64,000 bases of DNA from Nevskia sp. (GTDB lineage: Bacteria; Pseudomonadota; Gammaproteobacteria; Nevskiales; Nevskiaceae): assembly GCF_021732705.1 (NCBI RefSeq), contig NZ_JAKFUM010000001.1, forward strand, positions 1 to 64,000, written 5' to 3'. The position numbers were made by a program, and so were the translations under genes. Positions 55,555 through 57,844 of the stretch are shown here, one piece after another. Each line of letters starts with the position of its first letter. Position 1 is the stretch's first letter. The notes under the pieces were generated by a model, which ran no database searches, was not told the origin of the DNA, and was given only the letters and a program-made list of their open reading frames with translations.

Positions 55555-56199
55555 ATGTCCGATTCCCTGTCGCAGCTCATTGTTCCCGCGCCGATCTGGC
55601 GTCGTTTCGCGGCATCGATCTACGACGGCCTGCTGCTGCTGGGCCTGTGGATGGTGACGCTGCTGCTGAGCCTGCCTCTGAACCGTCTGCTGGCACAGCC
55701 GCCGGGCGGGCCGCTGTCGCGGGCGCTGCTGTTCGTCGTCGGCCTCGGCTTCTTTGCCTGGTTCTGGACGCGTGGCGGGCAGACGCTGGGCATGCGGGCG
55801 TGGCGGCTGCAGGTGCGGCGTGAGCTGGGCGGTTCGTTGCGCCTGCCGATTGCCGCCGTGCGCTACACCGCGATGCTGATCTTCTGGGGCCTGGTGCTGA
55901 CCCCGATTGCCGCGCGCCTGATCGGCCGGTCGGCATCGTTGTCCGAGCGCCTGCCGCATGCCGGCGCTGCGGCGACCGTCGCCGGCATCGTCGTGGTGCT
56001 GTCATTGATCGCGGCCCGGCTCGACGGCCGTCGACGACTGCCGCATGACTGGATCGCCGGCAGCGAAGTGGTGCATCTGCCGATGAATCCGTTTCCGGCG
56101 GAAAAGCCGGTTCGCGTGGCCAATCGCGAGCGCGTTTCCGATCAACCTGGCGATGCGCCCGAACCGGAATCACGGCGCCGCGGCAAGCGCCGGAAGTGA
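55555..56199 (+). CDS. RDD family membrane protein
   Basis: 214 residues. Three to four membrane helices lie between about 18 and 160. The family name motif region is RRFAASIYDGLLLLGLWMVT (here R..YD), with FFAWFWTRGGQTLGMRAWRL as the second hallmark. The C-terminal ~50 residues are polar and basic. RDD proteins commonly sit beside lptFG and pepA in related genomes, as here. Function unknown. Confidence 0.85.
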   Translation: MSDSLSQLIVPAPIWRRFAASIYDGLLLLGLWMVTLLLSLPLNRLLAQPPGGPLSRALLFVVGLGFFAWFWTRGGQTLGMRAWRLQVRRELGGSLRLPIAAVRYTAMLIFWGLVLTPIAARLIGRSASLSERLPHAGAAATVAGIVVVLSLIAARLDGRRRLPHDWIAGSEVVHLPMNPFPAEKPVRVANRERVSDQPGDAPEPESRRRGKRRK

Positions 56200-56252
56200 T
56201 CGTGGCGCCCGGCACGTCGTGCCGACGGTGCCTTGTTTCGGCCATCGCCAAT

Positions 56253-56279
56253 AAAAAACGCCGCTTCAGGCGAGCGGCG
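56253..56279 (-). terminator. Intrinsic terminator of candidate sRNA B
   Basis: On the minus strand the stem CGCCGC/GCGGCG (56279-56259) is followed by six T (56258-56253). The T tract is on the minus-strand side only, so it does not serve the convergent RDD gene. Confidence 0.85.
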
Positions 56280-56360
56280 CAATGATGGTTGGAGTCGGTG
56301 CCGGAGGGATGTTCCGGTCGTTCTGCACGAGGCTACCCAGGGGATAGGTTGGCTTCGTGA
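56253..56360 (-). ncRNA. Candidate small RNA B with C-rich hairpin loops
   Basis: An independent minus-strand transcription unit of about 106 nt. TTGACC and TATAAC lie just upstream and an intrinsic terminator ends it. The 5' hairpin (56326-56359) pairs CACGA with TCGTG and exposes TATCCCCT. A second hairpin (56301-56317) pairs CCGGA with TCCGG around the loop ACATCCC. A single-stranded stretch then leads to the terminator. No protein frame is plausible. Exposed C-runs can pair with Shine-Dalgarno sequences, as in the Xanthomonas sRNA sX13, which this resembles in design. Homology is not demonstrated. Confidence 0.65.
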
Positions 56361-56364
56361 CAGC

Positions 56365-56394
56365 GTTATAGATTTCGCCGATTGCTCAGGTCAA
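56365..56394 (-). promoter_or_regulatory. Sigma70 promoter of candidate sRNA B
   Basis: TTGACC at 56394-56389 and TATAAC at 56370-56365 are 18 bp apart (17 bp if CTATAA is taken). Each matches the consensus in five of six positions. The expected start is near 56358-56361. Confidence 0.7.
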
Positions 56395-56483
56395 GAGCGC
56401 CGTGGCCGTTCGCGGCCGGCTGCGTTGGCTCGTGGCCGGCGAGGGCAGGTTGTGATCGAACGCGCGATCAAAGCGTTTCGGTC

Positions 56484-56510
56484 AAAAAAAATGCCGCCTG
56501 AGCAGGCGGC
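56484..56510 (-). terminator. Intrinsic terminator of candidate sRNA A
   Basis: On the minus strand GCCGCCTG/CAGGCGGC (56510-56493) is followed by an A and eight T (to 56484). It could also stop read-through from lptG. Confidence 0.9.
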
Positions 56511-56608
56511 AAGGAATACATCATCGGAGACACACGCCGGATTCGGGGGAAATCCGGCCAATCAGTACGGCGCCGCGATTGAAAGCTTGGGGATGTGCGT
56601 CGCGTCGT
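56484..56608 (-). ncRNA. Candidate small RNA A with C-rich hairpin loops
   Basis: A second minus-strand unit of about 125 nt immediately upstream of candidate B. A near-consensus promoter (TTGACG-17-TATAAA) predicts a start near 56608. The 5' part (56577-56607) pairs CGCGA with TCGCG and exposes ACATCCCCAAG. A perfect eight-pair hairpin (56536-56558, GCCGGATT/AATCCGGC) has the loop TCCCCCG. A strong terminator ends it. The order of elements and the CATCCC motif are shared with candidate B, suggesting duplication. No protein frame fits. Confidence 0.7.
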
Positions 56609-56643
56609 GTGATCTTTATAAAGATCGTGTGATTATCCGTCAA
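56605..56643 (-). promoter_or_regulatory. Sigma70 promoter of candidate sRNA A with palindrome and direct repeats
   Basis: TTGACG (56643-56638) and TATAAA (56620-56615) are separated by exactly 17 bp. The -10 box lies inside a perfect 16-bp palindrome GATCTTTATAAAGATC (56611-56626). The 9-mer TCGTGTGAT occurs at 56605-56613 and again at 56625-56633, exactly 20 bp apart (two helical turns), a layout used by tandem-binding regulators. Confidence 0.7.
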
Positions 56644-56785
56644 GCGAGTCGCGAAACCGGGACGACGAACGGTACAGTCGTTCATCGAAACGCGCACTGC
56701 CGCAGCAGGTTCGTCCGCGGTCTCGGCAGCGACGAAACAATGTGTATCTGACCCCGATTGTTGCCTCGGGCGAAGGGGAGATTGA

Positions 56786-57844
56786 TCAGCGCGAGGCGCG
56801 CAGACGCCAGACCGCGATGATTGCCAGCGTCGCGGTGGGCAGACCGGCCGCGAGCGGTGCCGGCCACTGGTACAGGTCGCCGACGCTGACCGAGACCTTG
56901 TTCAGCACGTAGAACACGATGCCGACCATGACGCCGGCGAGCAGCCGCTGGCCGGCGCCGGCATCGCGCATCGTGCCGATCACGAACGGCACGGCGAACA
57001 GCATCATCACCATGATCGTCAGCGGCTCGACCAGCTTGCGCCACAGCCAGATCCGGTACTTGGTGGCGTCGAGCTTGTTGTCGTCGAGATAGCGCACGAG
57101 GTTGTACAGGCCGCGCACCGACAACACGTCGCCTTCGAGGATGAACAGCTTCAGCACGTTCGGCGTGATCGAACCGGTGATCTCGATCTGGTCCAGCGCG
57201 ACGACCTTGGTGCCTTCGTCATGGAATTCGGTGCGCTTGATGCCGGTCATCAGCCAGTGGTCGCCGACATAGCGGGCATCCTCGACCGTCGATACCTGCA
57301 CCAGCCGCCCATCCGGCCCGGTGCGGAACACGGTGACATCCTTCGCGTGGTCTTCGGCGATCAGCTGGCGGATGCGCAGCACATTGTCGGCATCGCGCAG
57401 CCACAGCGAGCGGTCCAGCGCATTGCGCACGCCGCGGGCATCGTCGCGCAGCGCGTTGGCCAGCCGTTCGCCGCTCGGCCCGAGCCAGTCGCCGAGGACG
57501 TAGCCGAAGCCGCCGAGCAGCGCGCCAGCCACCAGCGTCGCGCCGCCGATCCGCAGCATCGACACGCCGGACGCGCGCATCGCCGTCAGTTCGCTGCTGC
57601 GCGCCAGCGCGCCGATGCCGAGCAGCGCGCCGAGCAGCGCCACGATCGGCATCAGGATGTACAGGCTCGACGGCACCATCAGCAGGCTGTACTCAAGCAC
57701 CTGCAGCACGCCGTACTGACCCTTGCCGGTCTCGCCGATGTCGGAGATGAACACGACCAGCGTGTAGATCGTCACCAGCGCCAGCGCCACCAGCCCGGTC
57801 AGCGCCAGCACCGTGCCGATGATGTAGCGATCGAGCCGGTTCAT
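56786..57844 (-). CDS. lptG: LPS export ABC transporter permease LptG
   Basis: 352 residues from ATG 57844. Three N-terminal and three C-terminal membrane helices flank a periplasmic beta-jellyroll of about 180 residues. MNRLDRYIIGTVLALTGLVA, then ALARSSELTAMRASGVSMLR (coupling helix contacting LptB), are LptG-like. TLYxxIG-like DIGETGKGQY near the start and FVIGTMRDAGAGQRLLAGV near the C-terminus agree. It overlaps lptF by ATGA and extracts LPS from the inner membrane with LptB and LptF. Confidence 0.9.
   Translation of the reverse strand: MNRLDRYIIGTVLALTGLVALALVTIYTLVVFISDIGETGKGQYGVLQVLEYSLLMVPSSLYILMPIVALLGALLGIGALARSSELTAMRASGVSMLRIGGATLVAGALLGGFGYVLGDWLGPSGERLANALRDDARGVRNALDRSLWLRDADNVLRIRQLIAEDHAKDVTVFRTGPDGRLVQVSTVEDARYVGDHWLMTGIKRTEFHDEGTKVVALDQIEITGSITPNVLKLFILEGDVLSVRGLYNLVRYLDDNKLDATKYRIWLWRKLVEPLTIMVMMLFAVPFVIGTMRDAGAGQRLLAGVMVGIVFYVLNKVSVSVGDLYQWPAPLAAGLPTATLAIIAVWRLRASR

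Follow-up and report, generated by a model that had tools for sequence, protein, structure and literature searches.

The 64 kb window, the whole stretch of Nevskia DNA analysed here, raises the question of what is encoded between lptG and a convergent gene for an RDD-family membrane protein. A preliminary description had placed two tandem small-RNA (sRNA) units in this gap, with C-runs in their hairpin loops and a design resembling that of sX13 from Xanthomonas. The reading that we favour, with modest confidence, is that of two adjacent genes for C-loop antisense sRNAs, each with its own sigma70-type promoter and terminator, the second probably being a diverged copy of the first.

Promoters and terminators in the lptG-RDD gap

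Two minus-strand units were confirmed between lptG and the convergent RDD gene of the 64 kb window. Their elements and neighbours are the following:

56786..57844, minus strand: lptG, upstream neighbour on the same strand as the units (PF03739, 236.7 bits)
56638..56643, minus strand: unit 1 -35 hexamer TTGACG, from our own promoter scan; TTGACG is also seen by eye in the homologue of genome G016 (L130)
56615..56620, minus strand: unit 1 -10 hexamer TATAAA, after a 17-base spacer; predicted +1 at 56608
56484..56608, minus strand: unit 1 predicted sRNA, about 125 nt (46.4 bits, E 1.6e-11, with covariance model R1 in the window search; fold z -2.41)
56492..56511, minus strand: unit 1 intrinsic terminator, a stem followed by 8 T, from the terminator scan
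56389..56394, minus strand: unit 2 -35 hexamer TTGACC, from our own promoter scan
56365..56370, minus strand: unit 2 -10 hexamer TATAAC, after an 18-base spacer; predicted +1 at 56358
56253..56358, minus strand: unit 2 predicted sRNA, about 106 nt and probably derived from unit 1 by tandem duplication and divergence (24.6 bits with covariance model R2)
56258..56280, minus strand: unit 2 intrinsic terminator, a stem followed by 6 T, from the terminator scan
55555..56199, plus strand: RDD-family membrane protein gene, convergent neighbour (PF06271, 57.9 bits)

The scans thus agree with the preliminary description on the places and strand of both units, their promoter hexamers and spacers and their own terminators. 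The proposed lengths of 105-125 nt also stand, as the terminators end 125 nt (unit 1) and 106 nt (unit 2) past the predicted starts. In both cases transcription is predicted to begin at the A of ACGA, seven bases downstream of the -10 hexamer.

Our promoter scan covered both strands of the whole window and required a match to 10 or more of the 12 consensus bases with a spacer of 16-19; it returned only two sigma70 sites, which are precisely the two unit promoters. A stock promoter scanner reported no promoter in the region because it requires a T at the last -10 position. Our terminator scan of the window found both units and two other places (near 11.06-11.09 kb and 50.28 kb). When the 586-base lptG-RDD gap was shuffled, two or more such promoters appeared in 1 of 1000 shuffles, and as many terminator positions as observed in 0 of 1000. 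Therefore, the double promoter-terminator layout is unlikely to be due to chance. The sigma70-type promoters suggest a steady expression of the units.

Regarding proteins, the longest open reading frame across the region (56233-56751, plus strand, 172 codons) gave no Pfam match at E 0.01, in line with the earlier statement that no protein gene explains the region. A short-ORF reading was dropped, as this crossing frame lacks a Pfam match and no open frame common with G016 was seen by eye. As a separate observation, GGGGTCAGATACA lies just after lptG (window 56743-56755, minus strand) as the sole window copy within 1 mismatch, and it recurs in the same gap of five of the six close genus-mates checked (L013, L014, L015, L017 and L018; not exactly in L016).

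Exposed C-runs, fold and the likeness of the two units

The following segments were located within the units:

56589..56592, minus strand: unit 1 first exposed C-run CCCC, unpaired probability 0.99-1.00
56545..56549, minus strand: unit 1 second exposed C-run CCCCC, in a hairpin loop, unpaired probability 0.83-1.00; CCCCC also occurs in the G016 homologue
56515..56529, minus strand: unit 1 conserved linker CTCCGATGATGTATT, of which CTCCGATGA and TGTATT are kept in the G016 homologue
56340..56343, minus strand: unit 2 first exposed C-run CCCC, unpaired probability 0.95-1.00
56306..56308, minus strand: unit 2 second exposed C-run CCC, unpaired probability 0.99-1.00

The C-runs described earlier were accordingly found in place and predicted to be unpaired (0.83-1.00 per base). 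They are open in the predicted ensembles and, by prediction, would be single-stranded, as in C-loop antisense sRNAs. The terminator loops of both units are predicted to carry no C-run. The CTCC of the unit 1 linker is predicted to be partly paired (0.03-0.95 per base), and the CTCC linker is intact in unit 2. Runs of at least four C are no more numerous than in dinucleotide shuffles, since 19% (unit 1) and 86% (unit 2) of these reached the observed number; the support for the C-runs comes from their predicted unpaired state and their retention in the G016 homologue, and not from run count. Units 1 and 2 and the G016 unit have in common ACGA at the predicted +1 and two C-runs.

In the case of unit 1, 2 of 200 shuffles folded equally well. 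The fold of unit 2 varies with the chosen start: z was -1.13 from 56357 (26/200 shuffles as good), -1.45 from the predicted start at 56358 (15/200) and -2.57 from 56359 (2/200). The G016 unit folds with z -4.0. A 5' hairpin is predicted in the G016 unit and in unit 2; unit 1 forms it weakly and has another fold as its predicted optimum.

Two covariance models were used for sequence comparisons: R1 was made from the G016 homologue alone, and R2 from unit 1 and the G016 homologue, with unit 2 left out. R2 recovered unit 2 with an E of 6e-5 over 34 kb, the next match having 13.8 bits. When units 1 and 2 were aligned from the -35 hexamer to just before the terminator, the score was reached by 2/2000 shuffles, and by 37/2000 for the core without promoter. 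Local alignments were not significant (808/2000 shuffles for the core, 135/2000 with the promoter), the score of unit 2 against the G016 core was reached by 214/2000, and with R1 two spurious matches in L066 (18.3 and 21.1 bits) outscored unit 2 (15.9). Altogether, unit 2 is probably a diverged tandem duplicate of unit 1, a conclusion that we hold with reserve. The earlier remark that the units have little primary sequence in common outside the loops was too strong in view of the -35-to-terminator alignment.

A homologue in a second Nevskia species and the history of the locus

One other species, Nevskia sp. MAG D1_Bin_22 (G016), carries a homologue of unit 1 in the corresponding place. The score of their alignment was reached by 0/2000 shuffles, and on their sequences the two are judged homologous. 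The conservation that the preliminary description had proposed to seek by comparison is thus present in so far as a second species has kept unit 1 as a whole unit. Because MAFFT misaligned the units, the alignment was made through R1. In this two-row alignment 96.3% of cells were paired, as opposed to 27-57% when slid. Moreover, 5 of 29 pairs were changed on both sides and kept (0 or 1 in slid controls), a result reached by 21/500 shuffles; with two sequences only and an alignment fitted to the structure, this test is insufficient to prove structure.

LptG-like matches were obtained in 17 of 18 genus genomes and 57 of 58 family genomes. The DNA after lptG was readable in 15 of the 18 genus genomes (G009 and G011 have contig ends there, and G010 has no lptG match), and a unit follows lptG in only two of these 15, namely the window genome with two units and G016 with one. 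At 14 further family loci, 520 bases after lptG were read and no unit was present in any; at 20 more family lptG loci R2 found nothing at E 0.1, in a search by model and not by eye. The pattern of unit 1 and G016 matched exactly one stretch in genome_contigs, that of G016, a search from which the window's own record is possibly excluded. Over 85 genomes of the order, R1 gave 11 that pass E 0.01, with two convincing carriers (the window genome and G016); the other nine places looked like terminators or coding sequence when read. A wide occurrence in Nevskiales, as a covariance search might have revealed, is therefore not borne out. Among 369 class genomes, searched with stricter filters and including few genomes from this order, R2 at E 1e-5 matched only the window's own genome. 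DNA similarity searches gave, besides the units, short matches only for the 398-base region in 61 genomes, and short matches among the matches listed for the G016 unit in 58 genomes.

Several candidates from these searches were inspected and rejected. Four short DNA matches (G009, a second site in G016, G000 C4 and G022) were fetched and found non-homologous by eye. At E up to 1, R1 gave matches in 39 of the 58 family genomes; 15 of these loci were read by eye and were all terminators or apparent coding sequence, and the same was true of five R2 loci and L124, with no further homologue among them. L103, with 22.5 bits for R2 and a C5 loop before a terminator, was left as chance. A phage-borne unit was sought with a 16-base pattern in viral contigs, and the matches listed were taken as chance. 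As a side observation, two successive terminator-like hairpins were observed at L103:1380-1600 (G002:C5 near 429806) and in L086, one preceded by CTCCGATG and the other by a C5 loop, possibly a further C-loop sRNA. L103 lies between TonB-receptor-like and nikR-like genes, as named from their translations.

A tree of LptG (19 rows) placed the window genome and G016 in one eight-row clade with support of 100/100. Within it, a grouping with 99/96 support joins G016 to G005 and G014, both without the unit. Five close relatives with a readable gap have no unit (G002, G005, G013, G014 and G015), which implies that it is dispensable. One gain with later losses, or a transfer, fits this pattern best; two independent gains at one spot agree poorly with the sequence likeness of unit 1 and the G016 unit.

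Proposed function and relation to known C-loop sRNAs

With promoters, terminators, a second-species homologue and a probable duplication read from the sequence, we infer transcription, accessibility in the cell, targets and direction of regulation as follows. Each unit would be transcribed from its own sigma70-type promoter and stopped at its own terminator. The resulting RNA would comprise the ACGA start, two C-runs in single-stranded loops, the CTCC-bearing linker and the terminator hairpin. The C-runs, and perhaps the CTCC linker too, would pair antisense with G-rich stretches located at ribosome-binding sites or close to them, and this pairing would lower the translation of several mRNAs. 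Having two copies could serve dosage or let the RNAs reach somewhat different sets of targets. The analogy with sX13 makes base-pairing between the loops and G-rich start-proximal sites the most likely action. According to the available text of PMC3771888, this C-loop sRNA is a repressor of mRNAs whose G-rich motifs lie close to the start codon, and both its own C-loops and these motifs are required for repression. Repression by sX13 through its loops does not depend on Hfq.

A second C-loop RNA of the window genome bears on this reading. It is sX13-like and lies downstream of polA (L251:3016-3125; G000:C22:35782-35891), with ACUCCC, CACUCCCU, UCCCCCA and UUCCCCCG in its loops. A model, R3, was built from sixteen polA-downstream loci of the order (polA loci studied: L252-L281), and in its alignment 17 of 24 pairs have changes on both sides that are kept in at least one sequence. 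R3 matches 39 of 40 related genomes of the order at E 0.001, 10 of the 40 having given rows to the model, and the best match adjoins the polA match on the same contig and strand in 38 of these 39 (in G009 it is at a contig end). Tandem arrays of four copies (G003, G007, G041 and G044) or six copies (G047) occur at this locus. The four polA loci that were scanned contain copies scoring up to 39.3 bits against the sX13 family (cut-off 50). These matches lie beyond Xanthomonadaceae, to which the available text of PMC3771888 calls sX13 exclusive, and suggest a wider sX13 family than described. We also observed that polA copies (L264:1137-1228 and others) match anti-hemB (RF02837, Burkholderia) at up to 48.8 bits, with a cut-off of 49.5, a hint that a single broader family of C-loop sRNAs may exist. 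Upstream of 23 of 24 polA copies we found GAAC, 15-19 bases and TCNNA (strictly GAACT-TCTGA in 11 of 24); in shuffled windows the loose form turned up in a mean of 0.5 of 24 and never in more than 3. We take this motif to be a sigmaE-type promoter. ErsA of Pseudomonas also lies by polA. This sRNA is AlgU-dependent, according to the available text of PMC5819304.

The lptG units could be displaced members of this sX13/ErsA-like family. The CCGG-C5-CCGG hairpin of unit 1 resembles a hairpin of the polA copies, R3 gives unit 1 21.4 bits (E 8e-6 in the window, the next match having 5.3), and among Rfam families unit 1 comes closest to anti-hemB (20.5 bits, with a cut-off of 49.5), which the polA copies also approach. 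However, these 21.4 bits are genome background, as a site on G000:C4 reaches 22.3 and the polA copy 112; unit 2 and the G016 homologue have no R3 match at E 10, and the lptG units differ from the polA copies in promoter type, C-loop number and terminator loop. We consider such a displacement very unlikely.

Somewhat less improbable, but still unlikely, is that both units are 3'-UTR elements, where the first hairpin-terminator ends the lptF-lptG operon and the short RNA is a processed 3' end of lptG. The units lie on the same strand as lptG, and from the lptG stop (56786) to unit 1 the scan showed no further terminator on the minus strand. Against this stand the two near-consensus promoters inside the gap, the retention of that of unit 1 in G016 as TTGACG-17-TATCTT (9/12 by eye), and a second unit that follows the first terminator; such an element is also missing after lptG in 13 of the 15 readable genus genomes, so the operon does not need it. 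The idea that the two units are unrelated, or that unit 2 is a copy in decay which has lost its function, is a minority view to which we give a little more weight. It draws on the core comparison (37/2000), the non-significant local alignments and the z of only -1.45 from the predicted start, yet the 10/12 promoter, terminator, C-runs and CTCC linker of unit 2 are all intact, and R2 detects it at 24.6 bits. Our preferred reading remains that of two C-loop antisense sRNA genes.

More speculatively, and in our estimate improbably, the sX13-type polA gene and the lptG pair of one Nevskia clade may form two C-loop sRNA sets with overlapping G-rich targets. If true, one ribosome-binding-site code would be read under two signals, from a stress-type (sigmaE-like) polA promoter versus housekeeping lptG promoters. 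For Nevskia, the lptG pair would represent an additional C-loop sRNA, young and probably duplicated. Together with the polA arrays, it would make the order well suited to testing how C-loop sRNAs multiply, relocate and divide up their targets.

As for known systems, C-rich loops or motifs also meet G-rich mRNA sites in the multicopy LhrC of Listeria and CcsR of Rhodobacter, in other hosts and at other loci. The same can be said of RNAIII and HPnc5490, which are compared here by description (available text of PMC3771888). The adjacent, related Neisseria sRNAs NgncR_162/163 resemble the lptG units in being a pair and, by the available text of PMC9973317, obstruct ribosome-binding sites by pairing; they are 78% identical, have three stem-loops and are well studied, and they too were likened to the units by description. 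A literature search found, among the papers listed and judged by title and abstract start, none on Nevskia sRNAs.

With sX13 (RF02232) the lptG units share a short structured form with C-runs in hairpin loops. The likeness to sX13 proposed in the preliminary description concerns this design only. The sX13 gene is found downstream of polA, and its RNA forms three stem-loops that carry 4C, 4C and 5C (available text of PMC3771888), whereas the units lie between lptG and the RDD gene, on contig C10 and not on C22 with the polA match, and are predicted to have two C-run loops and a terminator loop without a C-run. The Rfam model of sX13 gave no match at E up to 10 over 56200-56780, nor at E up to 1 in the G016 locus L066. 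The polA-locus family likewise shares C-rich loops and, in relatives, tandem copies with the units, but in each of the 16 aligned copies the terminator loop carries a C-run, as do two inner hairpin loops, and 23 of 24 copies have the sigmaE-like promoter instead of a sigma70-type one. As a whole, the lptG units look like a young and rare addition, made in one lineage, to an already known kind of regulator.
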